This document shows, piece after piece, positions 30,748 through 60,327 of a DNA stretch of 64,000 nucleotides. Each line of letters starts with the position of its first letter. The stretch's first letter is position 1. This DNA comes from Halieaceae bacterium (lineage in GTDB: Bacteria > Pseudomonadota > Gammaproteobacteria > Pseudomonadales > Halieaceae). A program made the position numbers and the translations under genes. The notes under the pieces were generated by a model. The model worked only from the letters and a program-made list of their open reading frames with translations, was not told the DNA's origin and did no database searches. The stretch lies in the NCBI GenBank assembly GCA_902623175.1, contig CACNSR010000001.1, positions 124,001 to 188,000 of the forward strand. Reading direction: 5' to 3'.

Positions 30748-30753
30748 AACCGC

Positions 30754-32097: not shown

Positions 32098-32191
32098 ACT
32101 TATTGTTGTGCCCGGAGACCGTGGATTGCCTCACACCTTAGGCGCTTTGTGGCACCATGGCAAAGACAGTCTCAGCCCTCCGGAGCTTGCT

Positions 32192-32944
32192 ATGCGCCCC
32201 CATAAAACCCTCCGTGGACACATCCATTACACCAGCAGTAAGCCCGGTCGCGAGGGGGTGGAGCGCGGTCGTGAGCACTTCACGATTACCGTACATGGCG
32301 ACGGTCGCCGCACCTTGCGCGCGCACTGTGAGATTGACGACGAGCCTAATGTGTTACGCGATGTCACCCTCACCAAAAATAAAGAATGGGATACGCTCGA
32401 CGCCTTTGTGCGTTTGTCGCTCGGCGACGAGCAACAGGGCAGCAGCTGGTTTTACTTTGGCGATACTGGCGCCGACTGTGAGGGTTGGACCCATGAGCGC
32501 GGCCGTTTTTCAGAGCACGAGGCCTATGACGAGCGCCCCGCAATTTTTGGAACCCATCCCATTCAAGGGGACGCCTGGCACCTCGCGGTCATTGACCGAA
32601 GCGAGGGCTCAAAGGTCCACACCTTTGATCGTTTCTTGATGACGTCGCTCGATCATCGCGGCGCGACCGGGCCGTCACTGGTTTGGCACGACCCAGGGAT
32701 GATCATCGAATTTATTGGCGAAGAGACGATTACCGTGGGGGCAGGCACCTTCGATGCGCTGCACTTTTGCTACGGGGAGCGGGGCAGCACCGCGCAGGGC
32801 TCAAATGAGACCAATGAACACCCACCCTATGAAGTATGGGTCTCGGCTGATGGTGAATTTGTGCTGCTCAAGGCGCAGGTGACGGGGTACATGATGACTC
32901 AGTACGAGCTGGTCTCGCTGGAGGTGCATGAGGGCAACGGTTAG
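32192..32944 (+). CDS. conserved protein of unknown function, paralogue of 38292-39032
   Basis: 250 residues from ATG at 32192; GGAG sits 6 nt upstream. The open frame extends to 32090 but without a ribosome site. Soluble, beta-rich, acidic. Shares with the protein at 38292-39032 the blocks LRA[FH]CE[LI]DDEP, TSLDHRGATGP, [EI]FIGEETITV-x-AG and W[VT][ST]-x-DG[DE]F. These look like a lipocalin/DUF3108-like beta barrel with a conserved DHRGATGP loop; no catalytic role is known to me. Convergent with the FAD oxidase (11-bp gap). Confidence 0.75.
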   Translation: MRPHKTLRGHIHYTSSKPGREGVERGREHFTITVHGDGRRTLRAHCEIDDEPNVLRDVTLTKNKEWDTLDAFVRLSLGDEQQGSSWFYFGDTGADCEGWTHERGRFSEHEAYDERPAIFGTHPIQGDAWHLAVIDRSEGSKVHTFDRFLMTSLDHRGATGPSLVWHDPGMIIEFIGEETITVGAGTFDALHFCYGERGSTAQGSNETNEHPPYEVWVSADGEFVLLKAQVTGYMMTQYELVSLEVHEGNG

Positions 32945-32955
32945 TCACTCAGGCC

Positions 32956-40432: not shown

Positions 40433-41305
40433 ATGGCAGTTCAGGAATTTGTCTCACCGACATCCCTGTCGGAAGCGCAGCAAGCAGTCGGTGACGGGAC
40501 CGCCAGCTCGTGGCTCGCCGGTGGCACTGATCTCTTGGTCGGCATCCGGTTGGGTGCACGCGACCCGGCGCGGGTCATTGATCTCAAACAAATTCCAGAG
40601 CTGACCGCGATTCAGGTAGACGAGACGGCTGTGCGGATCGGCGCGGCGGCATCGGCTTTTGATGTACTGCACAATTCTGATGTGCCATCGCAGTTTCCGG
40701 GGCTCGCCGAGGCCTTGAACTTGATTGGTTCGACTCAGATAACCGGTCGCTGCTCGGCGGGCGGCAATCTTTGCAATGCCTCTCCAGCAGCAGACAGCAT
40801 TCCTGCGCTCATTGCCAATGGCGCCAAGTGCCGCATTCTGGGACCTGACGGCGAGCGCACACTGGCAGTCGAGGATTTCGTGGTCGGACCAAATCAGAAC
40901 GCACTGGCATCGAGTGAATTATTGATTGAACTCATATTGCCTAGGCCCACGCCTGGCACGTCGGATGCTTACCTGCGGCTCACACCGCGAACTGAAATGG
41001 ACATTGCGGTGGCGGGGGCCGGAGTCTCGATTACCATGGATGAATCGGGCGAATGTACCGCCGCTAGAATCGCAATCGGGGCGGTGGCACCTACGGCGCT
41101 ATTGGTTGAGGCGGCGGCCGAGGCACTGATGGGTTCGCAGCTGGATCAAACCGCTATTGATGCGGCGGTTGCGGCGGTGCGCGCTGCGGCAAGACCCATC
41201 TGTGACAAGCGCGGCACGGCCGAGTACCGGATCCATGTGGTGGGGGTGTTGGCGTCACGGGCTCTTGCTAATGCACGGGCAAGGATTAAGAAGGCCCACT
41301 CATGA
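40433..41305 (+). CDS. molybdenum hydroxylase, FAD-binding medium subunit (CoxM-like)
   Basis: 290 residues. The FAD motifs AGGTDLLVGI near 31 and TGRCSAGGNLCNASPAADSIP near 102 match xanthine-oxidase-family medium subunits (CoxM, HcrB); the C-terminal CO-dehydrogenase-flavoprotein domain follows (RIAIGAVAPTALLVEAA). It passes electrons from the 2Fe-2S subunit to NAD or another acceptor. First gene of three, each overlapping the next by 4 bp (ATGA). Confidence 0.93.
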   Translation: MAVQEFVSPTSLSEAQQAVGDGTASSWLAGGTDLLVGIRLGARDPARVIDLKQIPELTAIQVDETAVRIGAAASAFDVLHNSDVPSQFPGLAEALNLIGSTQITGRCSAGGNLCNASPAADSIPALIANGAKCRILGPDGERTLAVEDFVVGPNQNALASSELLIELILPRPTPGTSDAYLRLTPRTEMDIAVAGAGVSITMDESGECTAARIAIGAVAPTALLVEAAAEALMGSQLDQTAIDAAVAAVRAAARPICDKRGTAEYRIHVVGVLASRALANARARIKKAHS

Positions 41306-41796
41306 ACAAGCCGCTGAACAAAATGGCCGTGCAGGCCACCATCAATGGCGAGAGTAAAGCGTTTCTTTGCTCGCCAGGGCAGGTGCTGGCTGAGGTGCTC
41401 CGCGATGAGCTCGAGCTCATCGGCACCAAGATCGGCTGTAATACCGGTGACTGCGGGGCGTGTTCCGTGCTGGTAGATGACCGATTGGTGTGTTCCTGCC
41501 TGGTGCTGGCCGCCGAGGTGGAAGGCAAGTCGGTATTAACGGTGGAAGGGGTTGCCAATGGTGGTGAGCTCCATCCCGTGCAGCAGAAACTGTTAGAGCA
41601 CGGCGGCTTACAGTGCGGCATCTGCACGCCGGGTGTGGTGATTGCTGCCAAGGCGCTGCTGGAGCATAACCCCTATCCTACAGAGGAGCAGGCGCGCTAC
41701 TGGCTCGCTGGGAATCTTTGCCGCTGCACGGGCTACGACAAGATCATTCGCGCGGTGTTGGATGCCGCCAAAACGATGCGCGGGGGGGCAGCATGA
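41302..41796 (+). CDS. molybdenum hydroxylase, 2x[2Fe-2S] small subunit (CoxS-like)
   Basis: 164 residues. Plant-type ferredoxin cluster Cys45, 50, 53 and 65 (GCNTGDCGACSV), then the all-alpha domain with Cys104, 107, 139 and 141 (CGICTPG and CRCTGYDKI). All eight ligands are present, so both clusters should form. It links the molybdenum site to the flavin. Overlaps its neighbours on both sides by 4 bp. Confidence 0.95.
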   Translation: MNKPLNKMAVQATINGESKAFLCSPGQVLAEVLRDELELIGTKIGCNTGDCGACSVLVDDRLVCSCLVLAAEVEGKSVLTVEGVANGGELHPVQQKLLEHGGLQCGICTPGVVIAAKALLEHNPYPTEEQARYWLAGNLCRCTGYDKIIRAVLDAAKTMRGGAA

Positions 41797-44027
41797 ACGC
41801 CTATCAGGAATTCAAAATTATCGGTTCGCGCCCGATCCGGCCCGACGGTCTTGACAAGGTCACTGGCCGAGCGCGCTACGGCGCTGATCTCAACATGCAG
41901 GGTCAGCTATACGGCCATGTAGTGCGAAGCCCTCATGCCCACGCGGTGATTCAATCCATAGATTGCAGCAAGGCATTAGCAATGGAGGGCGTGCTGGCAG
42001 TCATGACGGGCGATGATCTCGTGAAACCCGGCAACGAAATGCTGGGTAGCGGCGAAGGCGCCATGGCGCTAAAGGATTTGGTGCCTATGGTGATGTCGCA
42101 AGGCAAGGTGCTGTTTCACTCACAGGCGGTTGCTGCCGTGGCCGCGACATCGCCCGAACTCGCAGCCGAGGCCTCGGAAGCCGTGGAGGTGGCATACGAG
42201 GTGCTGCCAGTCGTGACCGACCTGCATAAGGCGCTGGCGGCCGACGCACCGATTTTGCATGACGACCGATTCCCGGATGGCTACCCCGATGAGCCCACAA
42301 ATCTTGCCACCCACATCAGCCTCACCGTCGGTGATCCGGACGCGGCTTTTGAAAAAGCCGATGTGGTGATCGAGCAGACCTATTCGGTACCCATGTGCCA
42401 CCAGGGATACATTGAGCCTCACGCCTGCGTGGCACGCGCCGACGCCGCGGGCAGGGTGGATTTGTGGTGTTGCACGCAGGGCCACTTTGCGGTGCGCCAC
42501 TACACTTCTGCTGTGACCGGTATTGATGCGGGCAAGATCAAGGTCACCGCCTCTGAAATCGGCGGCGGCTTTGGCGGGAAGACCACCGTATATCTTGAAC
42601 CTCTTGCTGTAGTGCTCGCCCAAAAATCTGGTCGCCCCGTGAAGATGGTAATGGATCGGGGCGATGTGTTCCGTGCCACTGGGCCGGCACCCGGTGCGGA
42701 GACCAAGGTGAAGCTCGGCGCGACGTGCGACGGCAAACTAGTGGCGGCGGATGTCGAGTGCTTGATGGACTCAGGTGCCTACAACGGCAACCCGGCAGGG
42801 ATCCCGGCTTTTATGGCCACGGCCTGCTACAAGCTTAAGGATGCGCGTTCTACAGGCCGTTCCGTCTACACGAATAAACCGAAAATCCACGCCTATCGGG
42901 CGCCCAGTATTCCGCAGGTCACACTCGGGGTCGAGCTCGCGATCACCGAGCTCGCCGCCGAGTTAGGTATAGATCCCATTGAGTTCCGCCTTATGAACGC
43001 GGTGGAAGAGGGTGACGCCAATATGATGGGAGCGTCCTACAAGCGCATCGGTTTGCGCGAGTGTCTTGAAGTGGCTAGGAACCATGGACACTACAAGTCT
43101 GCGGTCGCCGAAGGGGCCGGCCGCGGGGTGGCTATGGGCTATTGGATTAATGCTGGCATGCAATCGAGCGCCACACTCAACGTGATAGCCGATGGTCATG
43201 TGTCGATTCTGACAGGCAGCCCGGATATTGGCGGCTCCCGTGCCTCCATGGCGTTGATGGCGTCAGAAGTTTTGGGGATTCCCTTTGAGCATATTCACCC
43301 GCAGGTGGCCGCCACCGATTCGGTGGGTCATACGGATGTAACGGGCGGTAGCAGGACCACGCTGGCGACCGGACAGGCGGTCATTCAGGCAGCCGAGCAG
43401 TGTGTGGCAGAAATGTGCCGGCGCGCCGCGGCGGAATGGGAGGTGGAACCCGGCCTGGTAAGCTGGTCCCAGGGCGCCGCGCATTACGGTGATCAGAGCC
43501 TGACCTTTGAAGACCTTGCCGGTCGCGCAGGTGCGATGGGCGGGCCACTAACGTTCTCGACTTCCCTAACCTCGACCAGCACCGCGCCGGGTTTCGGAGT
43601 GCACATCTGTGACGCCGAGGTCGATAAAGAAACGGGTCGCACCACCATCACACGCTACACCGCGATTCAGGATGCCGGTAAGGCGATCCACCCTGACTAC
43701 GTTGAGGGTCAGATGCAGGGGGGTGCAGTGCAGGGCATTGGCTGGGCGCTCAATGAGGAGTACCTCTACAGCGATGAGGGCGCATTGGAGAACCCCGGGT
43801 TTCTCGACTACCGCATCCCGGTGGCTTCCGACCTGCCGTTTATTAATGCGGTGATTGTGGAAGTGCCCAACCCGCTCCATCCGTTTGGGGTGAAAGGTGT
43901 GGGTGAGGTGCCGATTGTGCCACCCATGCCGGCGATCGCCGAGGCGGTCTATCAGTCCACAGGTGTGCGGTTCCGAGATTTGCCGCTCAATCCACCTAAG
44001 ATCTTGGCGGCACTCGCAAACAGTTGA
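41793..44027 (+). CDS. molybdenum hydroxylase, molybdopterin-binding large subunit
   Basis: 744 residues from ATG at 41793, which overlaps the small-subunit stop; the longer frame is a shadow. Motifs: GGGFGGK near 257 (Moco contact), AYRAP near 366 and the catalytic Glu in GVGEVPI near 706. The AYRAP loop excludes form I CO dehydrogenase, which has AYxCSFR, so this is another hydroxylase, for example for an aldehyde, N-heterocycle or aryl-CoA. No Moco-insertion gene (CoxD/XdhC type) is next to it. Confidence 0.92.
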   Translation: MNAYQEFKIIGSRPIRPDGLDKVTGRARYGADLNMQGQLYGHVVRSPHAHAVIQSIDCSKALAMEGVLAVMTGDDLVKPGNEMLGSGEGAMALKDLVPMVMSQGKVLFHSQAVAAVAATSPELAAEASEAVEVAYEVLPVVTDLHKALAADAPILHDDRFPDGYPDEPTNLATHISLTVGDPDAAFEKADVVIEQTYSVPMCHQGYIEPHACVARADAAGRVDLWCCTQGHFAVRHYTSAVTGIDAGKIKVTASEIGGGFGGKTTVYLEPLAVVLAQKSGRPVKMVMDRGDVFRATGPAPGAETKVKLGATCDGKLVAADVECLMDSGAYNGNPAGIPAFMATACYKLKDARSTGRSVYTNKPKIHAYRAPSIPQVTLGVELAITELAAELGIDPIEFRLMNAVEEGDANMMGASYKRIGLRECLEVARNHGHYKSAVAEGAGRGVAMGYWINAGMQSSATLNVIADGHVSILTGSPDIGGSRASMALMASEVLGIPFEHIHPQVAATDSVGHTDVTGGSRTTLATGQAVIQAAEQCVAEMCRRAAAEWEVEPGLVSWSQGAAHYGDQSLTFEDLAGRAGAMGGPLTFSTSLTSTSTAPGFGVHICDAEVDKETGRTTITRYTAIQDAGKAIHPDYVEGQMQGGAVQGIGWALNEEYLYSDEGALENPGFLDYRIPVASDLPFINAVIVEVPNPLHPFGVKGVGEVPIVPPMPAIAEAVYQSTGVRFRDLPLNPPKILAALANS

Positions 44028-44747: not shown

Positions 44748-46205
44748 TCAGCTTTTGATCTGCGCCTTGATGGTCTTATCGCTGGTTTTGCCATACGGCG
44801 GCAGCATGCCACCCAGCTTGGCCACGTTGAACTTCAGCGTCTGGCTATAAATCGATTTCGCGTGGCTGAAGGTCTTGAAGCCCTCAATGCCATGGTAGGA
44901 GCCCATACCAGACGGGCCGACGCCGCCAAAGGGCATGTCCTCCTGTGCGATGTGGAAGATCACATCGTTGATGCACACACCGCCTGAGGTGGTGCGATGC
45001 AGGAAGGCTTCCTCTTCGCCCTTGTTCGTGCCGAAGTAGTAGGCAGCCAGCGGACGGGGCTTGGCATTGATGTAGTCGATGGTCTCATCGAAGTGCTTGT
45101 AGGTACGAATCGGCAACAGCGGCCCAAAGATTTCCTCTTCCATACAGAGCGCGTCACTCTCAGGCGATACGATCAGCGTGGGTGGGATCTTGCCCGTGCC
45201 ATTGCTGAAGTCCTCATTTGCGGGGTTAAGCGGGATGATGCGGCAGCTCCGTTGCTCGGCATCCTCAAGGTAGCCACTCAGACGCTTGTGGTGACGCTCG
45301 TTAATCACCGAGGTGTACTGGTCATTGTCACGCAGGCTTGAATACATTTCGTTCACTGCTATGGTTGCGAGACTGATCACTTCCTCCAGTTGCTCCTCGG
45401 GCACCAACAAGTAGTCAGGAGCGAGACAGATCTGGCCGGCGTTGAGCGTCTTACCCAACATCACGCGTTGAATCGCCTGCTCCAGATTCGCTGAGCGGGA
45501 AATCACGACCGGCGACTTGCCGCCGAGTTCCAGCGTTACCGGCACCAGGTTGCGCGCCGCAGCGGTGAGAATGTGGCGGGCGATATTGGTCGCACCGGTG
45601 AAGATCATGTGATCAAAGGGCAGGGCGGAGAACGCCTGACCCATTTCGGGGCCGCCCGAGACGGTAGTGACCTCAGTGGGGTCGTAGGCCTCGGCGATGA
45701 TCTCTTCAATTACCTTTGAGGTTTCGGGAGTGAACTCCGAGGGTTTGATCATAGCCCGGTTTCCTGCAGCGAGGATACCGGCCAGCGGCTGGAACACCAT
45801 TGCCACTGGGAAGTTCCAAGGCGCGACGATGCCGATCACGCCTTTGGGCTGGTATTGAATATGCGAGCGTCCACCCAGCAACCCCAGAGGAAAGGTTGAG
45901 GGGCGTTTCTCGTCCTTCATCCACTTCTTAAGGTGCTTGCGGCAGTGCTTCATAGAACCGATCGAGGCGGCAACGTCGGTCATCAGGTTGATCTGGTCAG
46001 GACGGCAGACGAAGTCCTTGTTGATGGCTTCGCTGATGCGATCTGCGTGGCGGACCAGCACGTCGATCGCGCGATTCAGTCGATCGATGCGGGTCTCCGC
46101 GGAGACAAAGCCTTCCTGCAGGTAGCTCTCTCGCTGCGCCGTGAGCGCATCCTGCATTTTAAGTTCAATATCGGGGCTGACTACGACTTGTTGCGGGGCA
46201 TTCAT
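44748..46205 (-). CDS. coniferyl-aldehyde-dehydrogenase-like ALDH
   Basis: 485 residues from ATG at 46205, with GAGAAGAG upstream; a longer frame to 46241 lacks one. Aldehyde dehydrogenase domains: NAD site VAPWNFP (128-134) and GATNIAR (204-210), catalytic Glu226 (ELGGKSP) and Cys260 (NAGQIC). The compact N-terminus, lysine-rich WMKDEKRP and overall length match the coniferyl-aldehyde dehydrogenase (CalB) branch acting on aryl or medium-chain aldehydes. Downstream of the acyl-CoA pathway run, from which it is set apart by a 141-bp gap with an inverted repeat. Confidence 0.9.
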   Translation of the reverse strand: MNAPQQVVVSPDIELKMQDALTAQRESYLQEGFVSAETRIDRLNRAIDVLVRHADRISEAINKDFVCRPDQINLMTDVAASIGSMKHCRKHLKKWMKDEKRPSTFPLGLLGGRSHIQYQPKGVIGIVAPWNFPVAMVFQPLAGILAAGNRAMIKPSEFTPETSKVIEEIIAEAYDPTEVTTVSGGPEMGQAFSALPFDHMIFTGATNIARHILTAAARNLVPVTLELGGKSPVVISRSANLEQAIQRVMLGKTLNAGQICLAPDYLLVPEEQLEEVISLATIAVNEMYSSLRDNDQYTSVINERHHKRLSGYLEDAEQRSCRIIPLNPANEDFSNGTGKIPPTLIVSPESDALCMEEEIFGPLLPIRTYKHFDETIDYINAKPRPLAAYYFGTNKGEEEAFLHRTTSGGVCINDVIFHIAQEDMPFGGVGPSGMGSYHGIEGFKTFSHAKSIYSQTLKFNVAKLGGMLPPYGKTSDKTIKAQIKS

Positions 46206-46346: not shown

Positions 46347-47759
46347 CTAATGCGGATCAAGCTGATCGCACAGCCAGCCTACAGCTCTTGCAGGCGCGCC
46401 CTCGCCGTATCGATCCAGCAGCCATTCCTCTGTGGTAAACGCCATCATCGTGGCCTTGAGGCCAAGTCGGGGGAAGGGCTCGGGTTCCCACCGCTTGAGT
46501 TCTTCGAGTGAGCGCTGTGTTACCCACGGCATGCGAGTCCGATCGGTGTCCTGACCTGCGAGCAACTCAGCCAGCGTGTGGCCGAATAGAAAGCTGGCGC
46601 CCACGCCTTCGCCGACATAGCCGCCCGCGGTGGCGATACCAGAGTAGGTGTCGTGGATGACATGCGGGTGCCAGCCGCGGGGCGCGCCCACGCTACCGCC
46701 CCAGTTGTGGGTGAAGCGCACCCCCGCAAGCTGCGGAAAAAGACTGAGCGCGATGCGTTCCCTTTGCTGGCCGGTGGCCCGCGTGTCGCTGAGCCCGTGT
46801 TGCGGGAGGCCGCCCGGCTGATAGTGGCCCCGTGCGCCGATCACCAATCGGTTGTCGGCAGTGCGTTGCAGATAAGTGGCCGCGCGGGTGCAGTCAGCGA
46901 AGGTCTCTTTGTCGGCAAAGCCCAGGCCTGACCATTGCATATCGCTCAAGGGTTCGGTGGCGACCATGCCGGTCTGCAGCGGAATCACTCGTCGGTGCAG
47001 CGGGTTACCGGCCTCTGAATAACCCTCGGTAGCCACAACGATCTGGCCAGCTTGAATATTGCCCCGGTCACACTGGATGACGCCAGAGTGAATGTCATGG
47101 GCGCGGGTGTGTTCGAATACCCGAACCCCCAGCGACTTGACCACCCTCGCCAGCCCCGTCACCAACTTGGCCGGTTGTATGCGCGCTACGTGGGGCGTGA
47201 ACACCGCGCCACCTGGGTTCGCGACTTGAACGCGATCGCGGAGCTCAGTCGGTGTCAGCCAGCGGTAGTCGTCTTCGCCGAACCCCAGAACGTGAAAGCC
47301 GGCGAGTATCTTTTGGGCCCGCGCGACCTGCACGTCGTGCCGGGCCGCGGCCACGATGCAGCCGCCGTGATGAAAATCGCAGTCGATATTCTCTTTGACG
47401 AGGATCTCGCCGGCGCGTGAGACCAGCTGGGTCAGTTGTTGCCGCGCGGCAGCGGGCAGGGTCCCATTGTCATCAGTAAAAGCATCGCAGCCCTCCAGAG
47501 CCCCCATCAGCCAGCCGCCATTGCGCCCGGAGGCCCCGTGCCCAATGCGCTTGGCCTCGACCAACATCACGTCGAGGTCAGGTTGAAGCTGCTTTAGAAA
47601 ATACGCGGTCCAGAGCCCGGTATAGCCCCCACCCACGATCGCAGTGTCCGCGGTGGTGTCGGTCTCGAGTGGAGGCTCTGCGGCGTCGCGTTTTAGGCCA
47701 TCCCACCACAAGCACGGGCTGGCCGCTTGTTGGGCGTAAGGTTGGATTGCTGCTTCCAT
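46347..47759 (-). CDS. FAD-dependent oxidoreductase, DAO/PuuB-like
   Basis: 470 residues from ATG at 47759; GTG one codon before. N-terminal Rossmann AIVGGGYTGLWTAYFL, then VEAKRIGHGASGRNGGWLMG, which matches gamma-glutamylputrescine oxidoreductase and other DadA-like enzymes, and a C-terminal YVGEGVGAS FAD loop. Oxidises an amine or N-methyl amino acid to imine or aldehyde with release of amine. It follows the Rieske gene by 39 bp. Such an enzyme in a CoA-pathway run hints at an amine-bearing substrate or intermediate. Confidence 0.87.
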   Translation of the reverse strand: MEAAIQPYAQQAASPCLWWDGLKRDAAEPPLETDTTADTAIVGGGYTGLWTAYFLKQLQPDLDVMLVEAKRIGHGASGRNGGWLMGALEGCDAFTDDNGTLPAAARQQLTQLVSRAGEILVKENIDCDFHHGGCIVAAARHDVQVARAQKILAGFHVLGFGEDDYRWLTPTELRDRVQVANPGGAVFTPHVARIQPAKLVTGLARVVKSLGVRVFEHTRAHDIHSGVIQCDRGNIQAGQIVVATEGYSEAGNPLHRRVIPLQTGMVATEPLSDMQWSGLGFADKETFADCTRAATYLQRTADNRLVIGARGHYQPGGLPQHGLSDTRATGQQRERIALSLFPQLAGVRFTHNWGGSVGAPRGWHPHVIHDTYSGIATAGGYVGEGVGASFLFGHTLAELLAGQDTDRTRMPWVTQRSLEELKRWEPEPFPRLGLKATMMAFTTEEWLLDRYGEGAPARAVGWLCDQLDPH

Positions 47760-47798
47760 CACCCAGTGTCGCAGTCACAAGGCGGCGAGCTCATACGC

Positions 47799-49151
47799 TC
47801 AGGCATGCAGTCGGCGTTCCAGTTCAACATGGAAGTGCCGCAACCGCTGCTCCTGCTCGCCCCAGAGTTGTCCCTTGAACGCCTTGCTACGCATGCCTTC
47901 CTGCACCGAGGGCAGAAACGCGGCGTCCTGGCTCAGCACCAGGCCGAGACCCGGGTCTTCGTCGATGAGAAAACTCTCTGTCTCGGGCCGCACGCTACCG
48001 GTGACATTCGTACCCTCCGGCAACCCCATCCACGCAGGCGGGCAGTAGTTGGGATCGTCTACCGGGAACATCAGTGTCATGGTGTCGTACCAAAAGCGCT
48101 CTGGGTCCGTGTCGTGGGGTATGAAGCGCATCAAAAAGATGGCCTCGGGGTGGCAGCCGATTTGGACGTTGGGGAAAATTCCGGTCGCCCAACTGTCTGA
48201 CAGCTGACCGTCAGTAAAGCGTTCATAACCCAAACCAAGGCGCTCAGACCGCTCGCGCTTGGCCTGCTGAATCGCGGACCGCACATCGGCGGCGGTGCCG
48301 GTAAAACCGGCGGGATCCACACCTGCTTCCTGCAGCATGTACTGCAGCCCTTCATTGACCGTGGTCTGGTCCGCCTGACGCGGGCTGGGTTGCCCCAGCG
48401 GCACGATCATGCGGCTGGCGCCGTTGGGGTAGCAATCGTACTGCACGTTCAAATCGCCCATGACGCCACGGGTCTCGGGGTGCACCGCGTGCAGGTGATA
48501 GCTCTCATAGAATGCTTCGACGCCCACTTTCCAGTTGGAGCCCCACTCGCTACGCACGTGACGCACTACTCGCATCTGGTCGATCCGGTAGTTCTCGAGG
48601 TAGCCCTCAGGAAGGCCAACCGCTTCTTTGAGCGGGGATGGGGTGTCAGCCATACTGACGAAGACCAGCCCCGCGTGCTCCTCACAGGCCACTGGTGTGA
48701 GTCCCGGGCGGTGACAAATAACGGGCTCCTGAAAGGTTTCCTCGTCCGTGATGGTGCGCAGCTCCCCGCTATTGCGAAAGCTCCAGCTGTGGAAGGGGCA
48801 GACGAAGACTTTCTTGTTGCCTCGCTCTTCGATTAACAGTCGGGCACCTCGATGGGGGCAGACGTTATAGAACGCCTTGATTCCCTCTTGCGTGCGGGTG
48901 ACGATGATCGACTCACTGCGCACGCGAAATAAAAAGTAGTCACCGAGTTTTGGTATATCGGAGCTGACCCCGGCAATCAGCCAGCTCTGCGTCCAGACCT
49001 TGTTCCACTCGCGCTGCATTTGCTCCGCGCTGAAGTAGCCGTCTTTGCCGTAAATTTCGGCGCCATTGTCAATGGGGGGTTGCTTGGCCTCGAGACTTTC
49101 GACGGGTGCATCCGGGTTAATGACGGCAACGGGAATCATCTTGCTGTTCAT
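47799..49151 (-). CDS. Rieske non-heme iron oxygenase, alpha subunit (ring-hydroxylating type)
   Basis: 450 residues from ATG at 49151 with GAGGA before it; the frame is open to 49289 without a start signal. Rieske ligands Cys98/His100 (CPHRG) and Cys118/His121 (CPFH). Catalytic site VEAFYESYHLHAVHPE gives iron ligands His219 and His224. Longer than the enzyme at 27494 and more like ring-hydroxylating or O-demethylating oxygenases. No beta subunit, ferredoxin or reductase gene is adjacent. It sits mid-run between DUF35 and DAO genes. Confidence 0.92.
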   Translation of the reverse strand: MNSKMIPVAVINPDAPVESLEAKQPPIDNGAEIYGKDGYFSAEQMQREWNKVWTQSWLIAGVSSDIPKLGDYFLFRVRSESIIVTRTQEGIKAFYNVCPHRGARLLIEERGNKKVFVCPFHSWSFRNSGELRTITDEETFQEPVICHRPGLTPVACEEHAGLVFVSMADTPSPLKEAVGLPEGYLENYRIDQMRVVRHVRSEWGSNWKVGVEAFYESYHLHAVHPETRGVMGDLNVQYDCYPNGASRMIVPLGQPSPRQADQTTVNEGLQYMLQEAGVDPAGFTGTAADVRSAIQQAKRERSERLGLGYERFTDGQLSDSWATGIFPNVQIGCHPEAIFLMRFIPHDTDPERFWYDTMTLMFPVDDPNYCPPAWMGLPEGTNVTGSVRPETESFLIDEDPGLGLVLSQDAAFLPSVQEGMRSKAFKGQLWGEQEQRLRHFHVELERRLHA

Positions 49152-49179: not shown

Positions 49180-49596
49180 TCAGGCGTCCCCGCCATCCAG
49201 TGCGGGGTGTAAACGAAACAACGGCAGTGTGATGTCTTCTGACCACGCTGCAAAGTCCACCTTAACCGAGAGCCCCACCGCAAGCCCATCGGGGTCAGCG
49301 CCGACGATCTGACTCATCATGCGCGGGCCCTCGTCCAAGTCAATCAGGGCGATCACATAAGGCGCCTCAAAATCGGCAGAAACGCCCCGACGAACCACCG
49401 TGTAAGTGGCGATGGTGCCGGTGCCACTGGCGTCTTCCCACACCAGCTGATCACTGTGGCAGGCATCGCAGTGAGTGCGCGGATAAAACAGTGCGTGACC
49501 ACAGCTATGGCAGCGCTGCAGCACCAGCTTGCCCGCTGCACAGGCATCGTAAAAAGGCTGCTCGGTTGGTGTGGGGCGTGGTACAGGCTTGGCCAC
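49180..49596 (-). CDS. DUF35 Zn-ribbon/OB-fold acyl-CoA-associated protein
   Basis: 138 residues. GTG at 49596, two nt after the thiolase-like stop, is the probable start; the longer frame overlaps that gene. N-terminal rubredoxin-like Zn ribbon RCHSCGHALFYPRTHCDAC (two CxxC pairs) and a C-terminal OB fold (YTVVRRGVSADFEAPYVIALIDLDEGPR). DUF35 proteins bind thiolase-fold partners; in steroid side-chain degradation the DUF35 part of ChsH2 is needed by the aldolase Ltp2. The adjacency here to a thiolase-like gene fits the same partnership. Confidence 0.92.
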   Translation of the reverse strand: MAKPVPRPTPTEQPFYDACAAGKLVLQRCHSCGHALFYPRTHCDACHSDQLVWEDASGTGTIATYTVVRRGVSADFEAPYVIALIDLDEGPRMMSQIVGADPDGLAVGLSVKVDFAAWSEDITLPLFRLHPALDGGDA

Positions 49597-49598
49597 AG

Positions 49599-50771
49599 TC
49601 AGTGCTCCACGCCGAGAATGATGGTGGCGTGGCTCGACATAATGCCGCCCTGCGCGTGGCATAGTGCCGTGCGCATGTTGGGCAGCTGCCGCTCACCCGC
49701 ATCGCCCCGCATCTGGGTGATTGCCTCTGTGAGGCCGAACATCGCGCCGGGGTTGCCGGGATGACAATAAGACAGCATCCCGCCGTGGGTATTCATGGGT
49801 TTGCTGCCGCCGGGCCGGCTGATTCCGCTGGCCAGCCAGTCGCCGCCCTCACCCTTGCCGCAAAAGCCAAGATCCTCGATTTGAATTAGTAGCGCAGGGG
49901 TGAAGCAGTCATAGAGCTGCAAAAGATTAATATCGTCGGGTGTGAGCCCCGCCTCGGCGTAGGCAGCCTGACCCGATTGCACCGCAGCCGACGTTGTAAG
50001 GTCTTTCGCCTGGCTGATGTGTTCATAGGCGTGTCCCTCGCCATAACCAAGCAGGGTGATGGCCTTGTGGGGGCCATCTTTTGCCCGGTCTTTGCGGGTG
50101 ATCACTACCGCTGCACCGCCATCTGACACCAGCGAGCAATCTAGGACTTTGAGCGGGTCGGCGATCGCGCGGGAGTTCATGACGTCTTCGACTGAGATGG
50201 GATCGCGCATCTGTGCTTTGGGGTGCTGGGTCGCCCAGGCCCGGCAGGACACTGCAGCCTCGGCAAACTGGGGTTCGGTGGTGCCGAACTGGTGCATATG
50301 AGCGCGGGCGATCAGCGCGTAGTAAGCGGGGACGGTGGGTCCATAGGGTTGTTCGTAATGGGGGTGCCCCGAGCTTGACTGCACCACCATGGCCTGTTCG
50401 CGGGTCATGAAACTGCGCAAGCTATCTCCCATCGCTACAACGATCGTGTCTGCCATGCCGGCATGAATGGCGGCGGCCGCCATGTTGAGTGCCATAAAAG
50501 TGGTACCGCCGCCGGTATTGACGGTGACACAGTGTCGAGGTTGCCAGCCGATGTACTCGGCAACTGCCTCTGCGTGATACATGATGGGTTCGGCGAAGGC
50601 ATTGCAGGTAATGAGCCCGTCGACCTCAGCGAGGGTCAGGCCAGCATCTTCAATGGCATCAAGGGTGACCTGTACGCACAGTTCGCGGGGGCTTTTATCC
50701 GGCACGATGCCCACGGCGCTCTCTGCCATTCCAATCAGCGCAAACTCTCCCCCTAGTCCCGATACACTCAT
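49599..50771 (-). CDS. SCP-x/Ltp2-type thiolase homologue lacking the nucleophilic Cys
   Basis: 390 residues, thiolase fold of the lipid-transfer-protein branch (DGLITCNAFAEP, EIDDLG-like NLLQLYDCFTPALL, GGMLSYCHPGNPGAMF). At the N-x-x-C position of thiolases it reads NTGGGTT, with Gly88 in place of the acylated Cys, so ordinary thiolysis is not expected. Ltp2-type members are retro-aldolases that cut beta-hydroxyacyl-CoA. Neighbours are two hot-dog hydratase halves upstream (5 bp) and DUF35 downstream (2 bp), the same set as the steroid lyase complex. Confidence 0.88.
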   Translation of the reverse strand: MSVSGLGGEFALIGMAESAVGIVPDKSPRELCVQVTLDAIEDAGLTLAEVDGLITCNAFAEPIMYHAEAVAEYIGWQPRHCVTVNTGGGTTFMALNMAAAAIHAGMADTIVVAMGDSLRSFMTREQAMVVQSSSGHPHYEQPYGPTVPAYYALIARAHMHQFGTTEPQFAEAAVSCRAWATQHPKAQMRDPISVEDVMNSRAIADPLKVLDCSLVSDGGAAVVITRKDRAKDGPHKAITLLGYGEGHAYEHISQAKDLTTSAAVQSGQAAYAEAGLTPDDINLLQLYDCFTPALLIQIEDLGFCGKGEGGDWLASGISRPGGSKPMNTHGGMLSYCHPGNPGAMFGLTEAITQMRGDAGERQLPNMRTALCHAQGGIMSSHATIILGVEH

Positions 50772-50776
50772 GGCTC

Positions 50777-51190
50777 TCAGCTAGCTAACGTTAACCGTGC
50801 GGTGACCACGCCCGGTGTGAGTATCTCGTCGCGCTCGTTCTTTACGAATACCTCTAGCGTGACTTGGCCGGTGCTTTCGTCATAGGCCGTGATGGTGCCG
50901 CCTGCGGTAACGGTATCGCCAACATAGGCCGCGATGCGGTTGGAGTACTCAATGCCGGTGATTATGCCTGCGTCGCCCAACCATTCGTCGACCACTTGAT
51001 GCAGCCAGTCGCCCATCAGTGGGCCGGCCACAACTAGGCCGGGGTAGCCCTCAACCTCGGTGGCGTAGGGCATATCAAAGTGGATGCGGTGCCCGTTCCA
51101 GAGCGAGGCGTTGTAGAGCATTTGCTGCACTTCATTGCAGTAGTGCTGCCGCTCTGGGATAGCCATGCCGATTGTAGGTGCCGTGCTCAT
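50777..51190 (-). CDS. MaoC-like hot-dog hydratase, catalytic half
   Basis: 137 residues, one hot-dog fold. NGHRIHFD (32-39) followed by EGYPGLVVAGPL is the hydratase-2 signature of Htd2/mesaconyl-CoA-hydratase relatives, with the catalytic His/Asp pair present. Alone it is half-size; the other half is encoded just upstream with an ATGA overlap. Expected to add water across an enoyl-CoA double bond as a heterodimer, giving the beta-hydroxyacyl-CoA that the Ltp2-like protein could cleave. Confidence 0.87.
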   Translation of the reverse strand: MSTAPTIGMAIPERQHYCNEVQQMLYNASLWNGHRIHFDMPYATEVEGYPGLVVAGPLMGDWLHQVVDEWLGDAGIITGIEYSNRIAAYVGDTVTAGGTITAYDESTGQVTLEVFVKNERDEILTPGVVTARLTLAS

Positions 51191-51642
51191 CGCAGAATCC
51201 TTGTGGTCTTCTCGGTGACCACCATTTTGTTGTCATCGTCCCGCACCTCCATCAACACTTCGTAGAAGATTAAAGGTCCGCTGCGGCCGGCCTTTTCATA
51301 GATATCGGTCAATGTTCGCGTTGCGGTGAGCCAATCGCCGGGTTTAATCGGCTTGTGATACGTGATGTCGAGGCCGCCCGCCATCGCTTTTTCCAGTGGA
51401 AACTTGGGCAGCAGTGAGTCAATCGAAACGCCGTCTGGGGAGAGCTCATCGAGCGGGACGACTTCCCAGAATAAATGCAGATGAAAGAGGGGTGGCGCGA
51501 CGTCGCCCTCGAGGTATTTCGCCTGCCGGTTGTCGGTGGCGACTGCGTATTTGCGAATATCCCGCCGCGTCACGATCTCCCGCCGGGGCTCGCTCTGTTT
51601 ACCAATGTGCGAGAGCACATCTTCTGAGAGCAGACTGCTCAT
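51187..51642 (-). CDS. MaoC N-terminal-type (FAS1-like dehydratase) hot-dog half
   Basis: 151 residues with DIRKYAVATDNRQ at the start and MAGGLDITYHKPIKPGDWLTATRTL in the middle, the MaoC_dehydrat_N pattern. It lacks the His/Asp active pair and should form the structural half of a two-subunit hydratase with the next gene. Start-to-stop overlaps of 4 bp link it to both the acyl-CoA ligase and the catalytic half, so equal expression is likely. Confidence 0.87.
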   Translation of the reverse strand: MSSLLSEDVLSHIGKQSEPRREIVTRRDIRKYAVATDNRQAKYLEGDVAPPLFHLHLFWEVVPLDELSPDGVSIDSLLPKFPLEKAMAGGLDITYHKPIKPGDWLTATRTLTDIYEKAGRSGPLIFYEVLMEVRDDDNKMVVTEKTTRILR

Positions 51643-53195
51643 ACCTGACGGGTCTCATCCTGCCAGTAGGGGTCGCGCAGATCCCGTTTCAGAATCTTGC
51701 CGGTGGGTGCCTTCGGCAGCGCCTCCACGAAGTCGACGGACTTCGGTTTTTGATAGGAGGCCAGATGCTTGCTTGCCTCGGCGATGATCTCTTCCTCGGT
51801 GGCAGCTTGCCCGGGTTTCAGGACGACCACGGCCTTAACGGTCTCGCCCCAGGTGTCGTCGGGAATACCGAACACCGCGGATTCCAGCACGGCAGGGTGC
51901 TGGTGAATCGCGGCCTCGACCTGAGTGCTGTAAATATTTTCGCCGCCGGAGATGATCATGTCCTTGGCTCGGTCGACAATGAACACATAGCCGTCCTCGT
52001 CCCAGGTGGCGATGTCGCCAGTCCACATCCAGCCGCCGCGGAGGGTCTGCTCGGTGAGATCCGGTCTGCGCCAGTACCCCAGCATGTTGGCCTCGGAGCG
52101 CACCACAATCTCACCGGCGGTCCGGCCATCTCTGGGCACGGGCTCGCCCTGGGAGTCGAAGACGCGGATCTCCGAGACAAAGCCCTCGCGACCGCAGGAT
52201 CCCAGCCGCTCGGGATGGTCGCCGGCAACGGCGCGCTGGTGATCCTCCTGCGACAAAAAGGTCATGGTCATGCCCTCTGTCTGGCCGTAACCCTGAATCA
52301 TGGTGCAGGGGAAAGCCTTGAGCGCAGCCTCGACCACCGAGCGCGGCATGGGGCCGCCGCCATACTGGAAGTTCCGCAGGCTGCTGAGGTCGTAGTCTTC
52401 AAATCCCTCGACCGCCATCATCCAGTTGATCATGGTGGTGATGCCCAGAAACGCAGACACCCGCTCTTGTTGAATTACGTCCAGTGCCAGTTTGGCGTCA
52501 AAGTTGATCAATACCACGGGGCAGCCGTGAGCCATATAGTTCATGGCGAGTGCCACGGGAATGTGGAACATCTGCCCGGTGAGCATGTACACGTCGGTGG
52601 GCACGATGCGCTCGGCGATGGACTGATTTAGCATGCCCATATAAAGCGAGTGGTGAGAGTGCAGGGCGCCCTTGGACTCACCGGTGGTGCCGCCGGTGTA
52701 AAGGATGAGTACCGGGTCATCCCCGGTGACTTCGGCAGCGGCTGTGGGTTCGTCATCGCTCGACTGAGCGATCAATTGCTCGTAGTCGCAGTCAGCGGCG
52801 TTGGTGAAAACCAGCGTTGCGGGTGTATTCGCAGCTTTGGCGAGGCTGCCCGTGAGCTCGACATACTCCTCGGAGCCAATCAATACGGCGGGCTCGCCAT
52901 CTTCAAGAATCCGCGCCATCTCGGGCTCGCTCAGCCGCCAGTTGAGCGGCTGGGCAATCAGGCCGCAGCGCGCGCAGGCGTAGAACACCTCCATGTACTG
53001 GATGCAATTCTTGGAGAGAATAGCAACGCGATCACCTTTCTGGAGTTTGAGCTGATCACAGAATGCATTGGCGAGCCGGCGAACGCGCTCGTCGAGCGCG
53101 CTAAAGGTCATGCGCCGGTCGCTGGGTATATCGATCAGCGCCTCGCGCTCAGGGTCTAGGAGCGCGGTTTTGGCTGGGATGCGACCGAGATTCAT
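51639..53195 (-). CDS. acyl-CoA synthetase (AMP-dependent ligase)
   Basis: 518 residues. Adenylating motifs: P-loop LYTGGTTGESKG, GYGQTEG, TGDIATWDEDGYVFIVDRAKD and the C-terminal catalytic Lys in KAPTGKILKRDL. Activates a carboxylic acid to its CoA thioester with ATP. The operon context (hydratase and aldolase-like genes follow) points to an alpha,beta-unsaturated acid such as a phenylpropenoic or terpenoid acid, which is inference. It follows the NTF2-like gene by 9 bp. Confidence 0.93.
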   Translation of the reverse strand: MNLGRIPAKTALLDPEREALIDIPSDRRMTFSALDERVRRLANAFCDQLKLQKGDRVAILSKNCIQYMEVFYACARCGLIAQPLNWRLSEPEMARILEDGEPAVLIGSEEYVELTGSLAKAANTPATLVFTNAADCDYEQLIAQSSDDEPTAAAEVTGDDPVLILYTGGTTGESKGALHSHHSLYMGMLNQSIAERIVPTDVYMLTGQMFHIPVALAMNYMAHGCPVVLINFDAKLALDVIQQERVSAFLGITTMINWMMAVEGFEDYDLSSLRNFQYGGGPMPRSVVEAALKAFPCTMIQGYGQTEGMTMTFLSQEDHQRAVAGDHPERLGSCGREGFVSEIRVFDSQGEPVPRDGRTAGEIVVRSEANMLGYWRRPDLTEQTLRGGWMWTGDIATWDEDGYVFIVDRAKDMIISGGENIYSTQVEAAIHQHPAVLESAVFGIPDDTWGETVKAVVVLKPGQAATEEEIIAEASKHLASYQKPKSVDFVEALPKAPTGKILKRDLRDPYWQDETRQV

Positions 53196-53204
53196 GGCTG
53201 GGAT

Positions 53205-53618
53205 TCAGTAAGCGCTGTCGAGATCGATGTGGCGTTTGCTGATCTTCCACTCACCATCGATTTGTCCGACCTGATCACGGTACACCCCGGTGGTCAATAG
53301 CTTGGTCTCGGCGTTCTCGGTCGCGAACAGGGTCAGGTAGGAGGTGACCGCCAGGGTCTCTCCAAAAGCGTCAAACATGATGTTAGTGATGTCATGACGC
53401 CGCACATCGGTCTGGCTCGATTTAGCGCCCCGGTAGAGCTCCATGATGCTGTCACGCCCCTCAAATGGCCCGACCATGTCGCCCCCGGCGATCTGCATGC
53501 TCATAACAGCATCGGGCGCAAAGCAGGCTGCGAGGTCATCGAGATGATTCTCATCGTAGAAATAGGCCATTCGGTTTAATAACTCAGAGATGGCAAAGCG
53601 GTCTTCGGCTGACGGCAT
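53205..53618 (-). CDS. SnoaL/NTF2-like protein
   Basis: 137 residues. RFAISELLNRMAYFYDENHLDDLAACFAPDAVM is the N-terminal pattern of SnoaL-like NTF2 proteins, also used by Rieske beta subunits. The cone fold carries small-molecule isomerases, hydratases or non-catalytic ligand binders. It leads the nine-gene minus-strand run. It could serve as a beta subunit of the Rieske oxygenase at 47799, but usual beta subunits are about 160-180 residues. Confidence 0.83.
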   Translation of the reverse strand: MPSAEDRFAISELLNRMAYFYDENHLDDLAACFAPDAVMSMQIAGGDMVGPFEGRDSIMELYRGAKSSQTDVRRHDITNIMFDAFGETLAVTSYLTLFATENAETKLLTTGVYRDQVGQIDGEWKISKRHIDLDSAY

Positions 53619-59241: not shown

Positions 59242-60327
59242 TCAGTTCGGACGAACGTTTGCTGCAAACGACTTGTCGCGCACCGCGGTGCGAAATGCGG
59301 AGGGTGTTATCCCGGTTTGCTCGCGGAACATGCGGCTGAAATGCGACGCGTCATTAAGGCCCACTGCCACTCCTACCTCAGTGATCGACAGATTGGTGCG
59401 GCGAAGCAGCGCCTGCGCCTCATCAAGCCTGCGTTGCTGCAGGTACTGGCCAATGGAGACGCCCGTGGCGGATTTGAAGCGCCTGATTAAAGTGCGTGAA
59501 CTGACGCCCAGCTGTGAAGCCAGCGCACTCATGGCCGGGGCGGCGCGCAGGTCGCGATTCAGCTCGGTTTGGATGTCGGCAATGAGTTCATCGTGGTGCA
59601 GGTCCTTTGGCGCGCCGACCGGGGAAGGTGAGAAGCGTTGCCGGATTTCCGGTGAAAACTGGTTCTCGATATGACGCGCTACCCGCGGAGAGAATAGCTC
59701 TCCACAAAGATACACCATCAGGTCAGCGACCGAGTTCACGCTGCTCACGCAGAACACATTGTCAGACTGTGTGATCAATTGGCGGCGCTCTAGCTGCACC
59801 CGGGGGTAGCGACGCGCAAAGGTGTCGAACCACTGCCAGTGCGTGGTCATCGTCTTGCCCGTCATCCGCCCGGTCTCTGCCAGTAAAAAGCTGCCCGAGC
59901 CTACGCTGATTGTCAGGCTACCTGCGCGGACATGCTGGTCAATGACGGCAATCTGCTCCGGGTGCCGGCGGAGCACTCGCTGCGGCTGGCGCCAGATGGC
60001 GGGCACAATTAACAAGTCAGCCTGAGTGAACTCGCTTAGTGGTGTGGTCGCCAGCGAGAGCCCGCTCTGGATTGTGAGCAGACCACCTACCTGGCTGAAG
60101 CAATCGGTACTGAGTCGCTGCCGGCCGGTGCGACCGAGTGCCTGGGCCGCGCCCGCCAGAATCTCAAGAGGTAACGTGAGCGACGAGGCCAGCATGTCCT
60201 CGTGGGTCAGTGCCGCAATGCGAAAAAGTGCCCCACTATTTGGCGTAACAGTCATATTATATGGCGTTATACGCATAGAATTACGCGCTGTCGAATGTAA
60301 ACTGCCACGCTTTCGCGGGTTCGCCAT
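59242..60327 (-). CDS. GlxA-family AraC-type transcriptional regulator
   Basis: 361 residues at the longest start; in-frame ATGs at 60276 and 60255 are alternatives, and the last would leave an AT-rich promoter with a palindrome. N-terminal DJ-1/PfpI-like domain (LIVPAIWRQP, SVGSGSFLLAETG); the usual nucleophile Cys in this loop is Gly. C-terminal AraC HTH: LGVSSRTLIRRFKSATGVS and SITEVGVAVGLNDASHFSRMFRE. Divergent from fabY, so probably controls it or itself. The only regulator gene recognised in the window. Confidence 0.88.
   Translation of the reverse strand: MANPRKRGSLHSTARNSMRITPYNMTVTPNSGALFRIAALTHEDMLASSLTLPLEILAGAAQALGRTGRQRLSTDCFSQVGGLLTIQSGLSLATTPLSEFTQADLLIVPAIWRQPQRVLRRHPEQIAVIDQHVRAGSLTISVGSGSFLLAETGRMTGKTMTTHWQWFDTFARRYPRVQLERRQLITQSDNVFCVSSVNSVADLMVYLCGELFSPRVARHIENQFSPEIRQRFSPSPVGAPKDLHHDELIADIQTELNRDLRAAPAMSALASQLGVSSRTLIRRFKSATGVSIGQYLQQRRLDEAQALLRRTNLSITEVGVAVGLNDASHFSRMFREQTGITPSAFRTAVRDKSFAANVRPN
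60264..60274. promoter_or_regulatory. short palindrome at the regulator/fabY divergent start
   Basis: GCGTTATACGC has 4-bp arms around a 3-bp centre inside an AT-rich stretch (60251-60290). If the regulator starts at 60255, this lies upstream of it and could be an autoregulatory site. Otherwise it is internal to the gene. Confidence 0.3.

Follow-up and report, generated by a model that had tools for sequence, protein, structure and literature searches.

A conserved gene module of Halieaceae and other bacteria with a predicted split hydratase, thiolase-fold aldolase and free-standing DUF35 protein

In the steroid retro-aldolase Sal of Comamonas testosteroni (CtSal), Tyr302 and Cys304 of a YDCY motif are reported to be essential, and thiolysis is impossible because Gly replaces the nucleophilic Cys of the thiolases (Gly at the thiolase nucleophile site; PMC12329534). 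The DUF35 domain of the hydratase Shy is described as carrying a Cys3His1 zinc finger (PMC12329534). Shy shares with ChsH1 and PhaJ an Asp/His dyad, according to the published account (PMC11321319), and for mesaconyl-CoA hydratase Asn226 and His231 have been proposed as the catalytic pair (PMC10164722). We have studied a gene unit that combines parts resembling these enzymes in a different way. It lies on the minus strand of a 64,000-nucleotide stretch, called here the window (G000:C1:124001-188000), from a Luminiphilus-like member of the Halieaceae whose genome, G000, comprises 2.39 Mb and is 85% complete. Six genes run head to tail in the order SnoaL–ligase–HyA–HyB–Thl–DUF35. The unit is real, conserved and mechanistically coherent, and on balance we lean towards reading it, in combination with a second gene set, as a catabolic hydratase–aldolase module whose carboxylic-acid substrate is either no steroid or not exclusively one.

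The open reading frames (ORFs) and their start codons define a compact arrangement. The first gene encodes a SnoaL_4-like protein of 137 amino acids (53205-53618; Pfam SnoaL_4, E = 1.1e-20), separated by 9 bp from that of an AMP-forming acyl-CoA ligase of 518 amino acids (51639-53195; AMP-binding, E = 7e-78). The ligase gene overlaps by 4 bp the gene for HyA (151 amino acids, 51187-51642; FAS1_DH_region, E = 3.8e-17), the first half of a split double-hot-dog hydratase, which in turn overlaps by 4 bp the gene for HyB (137 amino acids, 50777-51190), the predicted catalytic second half, assigned by a match to the structure 8khg and a MaoC hot-dog model. Thl, a protein of 390 amino acids with a thiolase fold and a putative retro-aldolase, begins 5 bp further on (49599-50771; Pfam Thiolase_N and Thiolase_C_1), and 2 bp beyond it is a stand-alone DUF35 protein with a GTG start at 49596 (49180-49596; Pfam zf-ChsH2, a zinc ribbon, and OB_ChsH2_C, an OB fold). 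An earlier, sequence-only reading of this DNA had described a five-gene minus-strand run with 4-bp overlaps and gaps of 2-5 bp. The ORF table and start codons bear this out, and the Pfam matches agree with its naming of the ligase, the thiolase homologue and the stand-alone DUF35; the five genes stand, and the SnoaL_4 gene at the start of the interval, which had been omitted, has to be added to them. The nearest solved relatives of the ligase are FadD13 (294.3 bits) and feruloyl-CoA synthetase (290.5 bits). No acyl-CoA dehydrogenase gene is present in the conserved six-gene unit, in contrast to the igr operon, which includes one. Scans for sigma-70 promoters (2 found, 3.6 expected by shuffling) and for terminators (8 found, 6.4 expected) were uninformative.

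An alignment of 12 Thl sequences, scanned once against the genome collection, gave 126 relatives. The locus counts given here refer to the best 80 of these, and the denominators for gene order to those loci with enough flanking sequence. DUF35 directly follows Thl in 76/76 loci. HyB stands directly before Thl in 57 of 75. Further upstream, HyA keeps its position in 55 of 73, and the same holds for the ligase in 41 of 69 and for SnoaL in 38 of 65; the complete six-gene order from SnoaL to DUF35 is found in 37 of 62 loci. A comparison of gene order across genomes, which the sequence-only reading had proposed, thus finds that the order recurs, and the arrangement exceeds chance. Among the Bacilli, the six genes of the Alteribacillus locus L113 span no more than 5.5 kb, an SDR-like gene following that of the ligase, and L108 has its ligase, HyA and HyB at a distance of 7-10 kb upstream of Thl. 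We also searched 58 related genomes. Taking Thl at 60% identity or more as marking the module, it is present in 20 of them, including a fragmented copy in G023.

Some records call for comment on their own account. The G023 copy (G023:C8:27391-28551) has Thl in several fragments in different frames, with a TGA codon, and the aldehyde dehydrogenase (ALDH) of that genome is in two pieces; either frameshifts or assembly errors are responsible. In the pair L078/L062, a record labelled Klebsiella pneumoniae holds a module Thl near-identical to that of G044:C8, with which its contig appears to be identical, and a Planctomycetaceae record holds a Halieaceae-like module; both are probably mislabelled or contaminated metagenome-assembled genomes (MAGs). 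Genes resembling CofD and CofE of F420 biosynthesis, judged by eye, lie near the module in L095, L097, L103 and L111.

The closest named homologues of Thl, at 95% identity, come from MAGs of Luminiphilus and other Halieaceae. Among solved proteins phmmer places it nearest to 4U4E (E = 2.3e-92), CtSal (9MYR, 1e-59) and the Ltp2 structure TcLtp2 (6OK1, 1.3e-52), and the same three head the Foldseek matches of a Thl model of moderate quality (predicted local distance difference test, pLDDT, 78.5; built on 12 sequences). Thl has the motif Y287-D288-C289-F290, and Gly87 and Gly88 at the site of the lost nucleophile, Gly88 corresponding in position to the Gly of CtSal. Tyr287, Asp288, Cys289, Phe290, Asn327, His337 and His372 are invariant in 80/80 loci. 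The nucleophilic Cys of SCP-2 thiolase is not present, both glycines being kept in 79/79 loci that cover them. Thl is predicted to be a retro-aldolase and not a thiolase because it has the Tyr-Asp-Cys residues proven in Sal together with Gly for the nucleophilic Cys, and we consider this function likely. The route of activation, hydration and retro-aldol cleavage put forward in the sequence-only reading gains support from these Sal-type residues and the lost Cys, as far as sequence can predict it.

The phylogeny sets Thl apart. In a maximum-likelihood tree of 61 rows, with long branches and a root chosen for drawing only, the module Thl sequences form their own clade (34 rows, support 100/99). 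CtSal groups with a single homologue from G057 (100/100) and TcLtp2 falls in a six-row clade (100/100), each apart from module Thl. Searching the 58 genomes with the CtSal chain (E 1e-60) returned one clear Sal-like gene, that of G057 (48% identity), followed by a pair of other paralogues at 38% and 37% identity and by module Thl proteins from four genomes at 35-37%. So Thl is predicted to act like Sal, yet it stands outside the Sal clade. The description of Thl as an Ltp2/SCP-x thiolase homologue can be kept for its homology and aldolase-type residues; as to closer kinship with Ltp2 it fails, since Thl belongs to a separate clade and lacks the YDHF motif and Tyr344.

Both hydratase halves find their counterpart in one protein. 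By phmmer, HyA matches residues 9-138 of itaconyl-CoA hydratase 8khg, and HyB residues 174-211 of the same chain. HyB has no match in Pfam; its predicted fold is that of a MaoC hot dog (AlphaFold2, pLDDT 94.5), and its top Foldseek match is the short chain of 125-127 residues in the ChsH1-ChsH2 complex (template modelling score 0.83), which the PDB names ChsH1 in 4wnb and ChsH2 in 4w78. By sequence ChsH1 is a marginal match for HyB (E = 0.012). The motif N32-x-H-R-I-H37 of HyB has the spacing of Asn226 and His231 in mesaconyl-CoA hydratase, and N32 and H37 are found in 61/61 loci with a HyB match. HyA and HyB would thus form a split hydratase of the mesaconyl/itaconyl-CoA type with an Asn/His pair, HyA presumably being the non-catalytic half. 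The two separate hot-dog halves of the sequence-only reading are confirmed; a reading of them as a ChsH1/ChsH2 pair does not hold by sequence or by dyad. The DUF35 protein has a predicted zinc site, C29-x2-C32-x10-C43-x2-C46, with the four Cys present in 79/79 loci with a DUF35 match. Judged by its predicted parts, the module is a third build of the hydratase–aldolase machine. None of the titles and abstracts searched, which dealt with steroids or with unrelated subjects and came from a literature to which subscription journals mostly do not belong, names a split mesaconyl-type hydratase together with a free DUF35 and a Sal-type aldolase.

The neighbourhood of the module in other genomes reveals a second gene set. 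Just upstream of it in HTCC2143 (L089), L. syltensis (L107) and Kineobactrum (L079) are SDR, APH-type kinase, ligase, TetR-type and alpha/beta hydrolase genes, joined in L089 and L079 by a luciferase-like monooxygenase gene; the families were tested on L089 and the other loci assigned by cluster. The genome of the window carries a second set on another contig (L201, G000:C3:104000-123900), collinear with the genes upstream of the module elsewhere in the Halieaceae. It comprises an SDR, a pyrroloquinoline quinone (PQQ)/cytochrome protein, an acyl-CoA dehydrogenase, another SDR, an ACAD11-like kinase, a ligase, a TetR-type protein, a hydrolase and the luciferase-like monooxygenase. In HTCC2080 one contig holds both, the second set and the module being some 34 kb apart. 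The luciferase-like orthologue (E 1e-45) is present in 15 of 20 genomes with the module and 2 of 38 others (Fisher p = 5.6e-8), and within the genus in 14 of 18 with the module and 2 of 19 without (p = 4.7e-5). The two module-less genomes concerned, G029 and G032, are 68% and 78% complete.

Similar company is seen at a distance. Loci with 12 kb or more of sequence were sorted by hand according to their record titles, one Steroidobacteraceae record going under 'other'; among them the luciferase-like gene lies near the module in 14/27 other gammaproteobacterial, 4/7 Bacilli, 0/7 alphaproteobacterial and 1/7 other loci, and the APH-type kinase in 13/27, 3/7, 3/7 and 0/7, respectively. The window's own clade, with 11 such loci, has neither, and both are missing too from nine control windows, a small set taken around eight relatives of the ALDH and a single Sal-like gene. 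In five of the seven alphaproteobacterial loci the luciferase-like gene is replaced by one that best matches the Baeyer-Villiger enzyme PtlE, far below cut-off. By cluster assignment the luciferase-like gene is present in 16 loci, the PtlE-matching gene in 6 and both in one. The kinase resembles the kinase domain of ACAD11, which is among its solved relatives (114.7 bits) as the third distinct protein after two other entries. ACAD10/11 and the bacterial LvaA-LvaC pair are reported to convert 4-hydroxyacyl-CoA into 2-enoyl-CoA (PMC12440821).

From the observed gene order, residues, phylogeny and co-occurrence we infer the chemistry throughout, and the substrate is a guess. In the order of steps that we propose, oxygenation and hydrolysis by the second set would give a hydroxy acid, the set probably opening an oxygenated ring or lactone and supplying an unsaturated thioester; the kinase and acyl-CoA dehydrogenase could form the enoyl-CoA, and the ligase of the module would form the acyl-CoA. 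The HyA-HyB pair would then hydrate the alpha,beta-unsaturated acyl-CoA, with Asn32 and His37 activating water. Thl, held by the free DUF35, would cleave the resulting beta-hydroxyacyl-CoA by a retro-aldol reaction, in which Tyr287 might accept the proton of the beta-hydroxyl while Cys289, paired with His337, protonated the enolate. The products would be an aldehyde or ketone and a short acyl-CoA. An alicyclic or terpenoid acid is the substrate we prefer to guess from the neighbouring families, although we regard that choice as doubtful. Tentatively, and with a little more conviction, we propose the wider picture of a third, separately assembled machine, combining a split hydratase of the mesaconyl/itaconyl-CoA type with a free DUF35 and a thiolase-fold aldolase whose site holds Tyr, Cys and His, and serving a widespread non-steroid pathway of Pseudomonadota and Bacillota. 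Its two-part gene set may oxygenate and open an alicyclic or terpenoid compound and cut its side chain by retro-aldol cleavage, the Thl-DUF35 pair alone reaching Binatota and Myxococcota.

Several observations weigh against this reading. At the active site of Thl, His337 takes the place of Gln352 in CtSal and Tyr344 in TcLtp2, and Met332 that of CtSal Gln347; because of these replacements the acid step may differ, or the reaction be another. Asn in place of Asp could alter the hydratase activity of HyB. In 18 of 75 loci, including six of the seven Bacilli loci and five Binatia loci, no hydratase genes adjoin Thl-DUF35, and hydration may therefore not always precede the Thl step. The luciferase-like orthologue is missing in five of the 20 module genomes, G004 (97% complete), G044 (100%), G005, G013 and G026, and two of the 15 positives are fragmentary, the gene of G030 lying at a contig end and that of G033 being split in two. 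The p-values for co-occurrence are too small, because the genomes are related and the gene was chosen after the neighbourhoods had been seen. The luciferase-like protein is itself distant from the Baeyer-Villiger diketocamphane enzymes (34.5 bits), and the substrate class is drawn entirely from neighbouring families. Both the activity and the complex are putative.

Downstream of the unit, on the same strand, DUF35 is followed after 28 bp by a Rieske non-haem iron oxygenase of the alpha-subunit type (47799-49151, 450 amino acids; Pfam Rieske and Ring_hydroxyl_A), after a further 36 bp by an FAD-dependent oxidoreductase of the DAO family (46347-47762; Pfam DAO, E = 4.4e-51) and after 141 bp by a class-3-like, Sad-like ALDH (44748-46205, probable ATG at 46205). 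The sequence-only reading had placed a Rieske oxygenase and an ALDH here, and both are present; it did not mention the DAO gene between them, which occurs only in part of the Luminiphilus clade. The Rieske gene is in place, at 65% identity or above, in 36 of 73 loci, following the module in Halieaceae, Porticoccaceae and some other gammaproteobacteria. That the protein is a Rieske oxygenase stands, but it may not be ring-type, as its best NCBIfam model is the glycine-betaine enzyme GbcA and its PDB matches to carnitine monooxygenase (96.2 bits) and phthalate 3,4-dioxygenase (93.2 bits) are nearly level.

Among NCBIfam models the ALDH scores best against that of benzaldehyde dehydrogenase MdlD, without reaching its cut-off, and the nearest solved protein, a suggestive match, is steroid aldehyde dehydrogenase 9nxl (432.7 bits); the label 'coniferyl-aldehyde-type' is unsupported by either. 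The nearest structure was rejected as decisive, since relatives of the family occur in 49 of 58 genomes (E 1e-60), with 9nxl as best solved match and varied neighbours around the nearest of them. The ALDH adjoins the module only in the window's own Luminiphilus clade (12 of the 17 loci L042-L058, the other five ending earlier). Relatives of 64-69% identity in G016 (HTCC2080), G009, G034 and G035 lie beside other genes, judged by eye to be of TetR and reductase types, and in G016, G009 and G034 this is so even though the module is present elsewhere in the genome. We therefore rejected the ALDH as a fixed partner of the module. Counting against that rejection, a different ALDH (26-31% identical) is near the module in four Bacilli loci (L088, L090, L112 and L113), and in L090 directly follows DUF35 on the same strand, which favours an aldehyde as product. 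The proposal that the window's ALDH oxidizes the aldehyde product as a step of the pathway is thus left unsupported, the gene being clade-limited though another ALDH accompanies the module in those four loci; we leave it out of the mechanism but keep it as a possibility. The GbcA-like Rieske protein, together with the DAO gene and an AraC-type gene (59242-60327), had pointed to a carnitine or betaine pathway; this was also rejected, because the ALDH is nearer to MdlD and Sad than to betaine-aldehyde dehydrogenase, because DAO and ALDH are not kept with the module beyond one clade, and because the AraC-type protein scores 91.7 bits against a GbdR cut-off of 480.

Other genes of the window were examined by eye. 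A three-gene molybdenum hydroxylase set (FAD, iron-sulfur and large subunits) lies on the plus strand at 40433-44027, and a large subunit of this kind is near the ALDH in five loci of the window's clade. The region 27494-34551, mostly one minus-strand run, encodes a second Rieske-type protein, an old-yellow-enzyme-like flavoprotein, an MFS transporter and an FAD-linked oxidase, and is possibly another catabolic unit.

Does the module nevertheless belong to steroid degradation? It could be a variant of Shy-Sal-Sad acting on the side chain of a bile acid or sterol, with the rings left undegraded or the ring genes missed; the Sal-type motif of Thl and the nearest solved relative of the ALDH are as this would have them. 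Growth on cholesterol is described as predicted for Halieaceae and shown for one isolate (PMC5790920), and because steroid degradation exists in the family a steroid substrate may hold in some members. HsaC (NF045631, E 1e-20) and HsaD (NF045632, E 1e-40) each match in 24 of the 58 genomes, always below the curated cut-offs. At these thresholds neither is found in G000, an absence that is not final because that genome is 85% complete. Over the 58 genomes neither is associated with the module: HsaC occurs in 8/20 with it and 16/38 without (p = 1.0), and HsaD in 9/20 and 15/38 (p = 0.78). The link is broken in both directions, G004 and G036 (97% and 95% complete) having the module without HsaC or HsaD, and the single-contig genomes G006 and G031 the reverse. 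Thl moreover lies outside the Sal and Ltp2 clades, the DUF35 zinc site is C4 and not the C3H1 of Shy, and modules of Bacilli are near genes for TRAP and aromatic-acid-type MFS transporters. We consider a steroid side-chain module unlikely. A non-steroid context, claimed in the sequence-only reading, finds support both in the genome of the window and in the lack of association, and we hold it with good confidence.

Cinnamates and related aryl-propenoids might be cleaved to an aryl aldehyde and acetyl-CoA, the aldehyde then being oxidized by an ALDH; an acid that is already unsaturated needs no acyl-CoA dehydrogenase, the ligase is about equally near to feruloyl-CoA synthetase and FadD13, and the ALDH of L090 is suitably placed. 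TRAP permease genes are near the module in four of seven Bacilli loci, one MFS cluster in three and one ALDH cluster in four. In L113, the only Bacilli locus tested, the MFS protein matches an aromatic acid/H+ symport model (369 bits, cut-off 418.55) and the best match of the ALDH is StyD, a phenylacetaldehyde dehydrogenase (576.2 bits, cut-off 850); neither score reaches its cut-off. For the Bacilli lineage, this company gives the strongest indication of a soluble and perhaps aromatic acid. In the genus of the window, however, genes for intradiol (PF00775), LigB-type (PF02900) and phenylacetyl-CoA (PaaA, TIGR02156) ring attack were found in none of 13 genomes, the window's own included, by searches that each matched in 4 of 14 control genomes, and no HsaC/BphC-type extradiol gene was found in G000. 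The window's ALDH is adjacent in one clade only; the units of HTCC2143, L. syltensis and Kineobactrum adjoin hydrolase, ligase and kinase genes, and neither by eye nor among the ten proteins tested did a ring-cleavage gene come to notice there. In the RHA1 cou route cleavage is ascribed to an amidohydrolase-family enzyme, and the abstract and a term search of a piperine paper considered as a parallel gave no match for thiolase, aldolase or retro. The phenylpropenoid substrate suggested in the sequence-only reading is weakened for this organism: full catabolism is argued against, side-chain removal alone is not, and the aryl-propenoid explanation as a whole seems to us improbable. Less probable still is a biosynthetic unit, with Thl a thiolase-like acyltransferase or decarboxylase. 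DUF35-thiolase pairs do form bonds in HMG-CoA formation and in PhlABC (6esq/6et9 and 5m3k, more distant matches of Thl), but 6esq and 7yvy keep the nucleophilic Cys where all 79 covering loci of the module have Gly, and a preceding ligase and hydratase suit degradation better.

Thiolase-fold genes adjoining DUF35 are often labelled 'acetyl-CoA acetyltransferase' or 'thiolase', for example in plasmid records. If the Thl clade consists of aldolases, such annotations would shift from beta-oxidation to retro-aldol cleavage, and the switch from thiolase to aldolase, a chemistry so far known from steroid side chains, would be known outside steroids. The lineage spans marine Halieaceae and Bacilli, and the pathway may matter for the turnover of refractory marine or plant-derived compounds. 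The exchange of Gln or Tyr for His337 bears on how a thiolase fold became a lyase.

The catabolic hydratase–aldolase module that we favour can finally be set beside the systems it most resembles. The solved protein closest in sequence to Thl, the putative thiolase 4U4E of Sphaerobacter thermophilus, has a YDSF motif and belongs to another clade; we know of no function assigned to it. Sal of Comamonas testosteroni, a bile-acid aldolase for C5 steroid side chains, shares with Thl the Tyr-Asp-Cys motif, the Gly at the former nucleophile, a DUF35 partner and the coupling of hydratase to aldolase, and differs in its clade and in having Gln352 and Gln347 at the positions of His337 and Met332. Shy is a homodimeric MaoC protein fused to DUF35, where the module has a split hydratase and a separate C4 DUF35. 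The actinobacterial ChsH1-ChsH2-Ltp2 system of the cholesterol side chain (4W78, 4WNB, 6OK1) likewise has two hydratase halves, a thiolase-fold aldolase and a DUF35, but there the DUF35 is borne on the C terminus of ChsH2 and ChsH1 has Asp/His, whereas in the module DUF35 is a separate ORF and HyB has Asn/His; Ltp2 itself, an aldolase for C3 steroid side chains, has YDHF with Tyr344 and Thl YDCF with His337. MeaC and PaIch (8KHG) resemble the predicted hydratase most closely in kind, with a FAS1_DH-type first half and, in the second, N-x-H-R-I-H with Asn/His. They are single chains acting on C5 diacid-CoA, whereas in the module the two halves are encoded by two genes and coupled to a predicted thiolase-fold aldolase.

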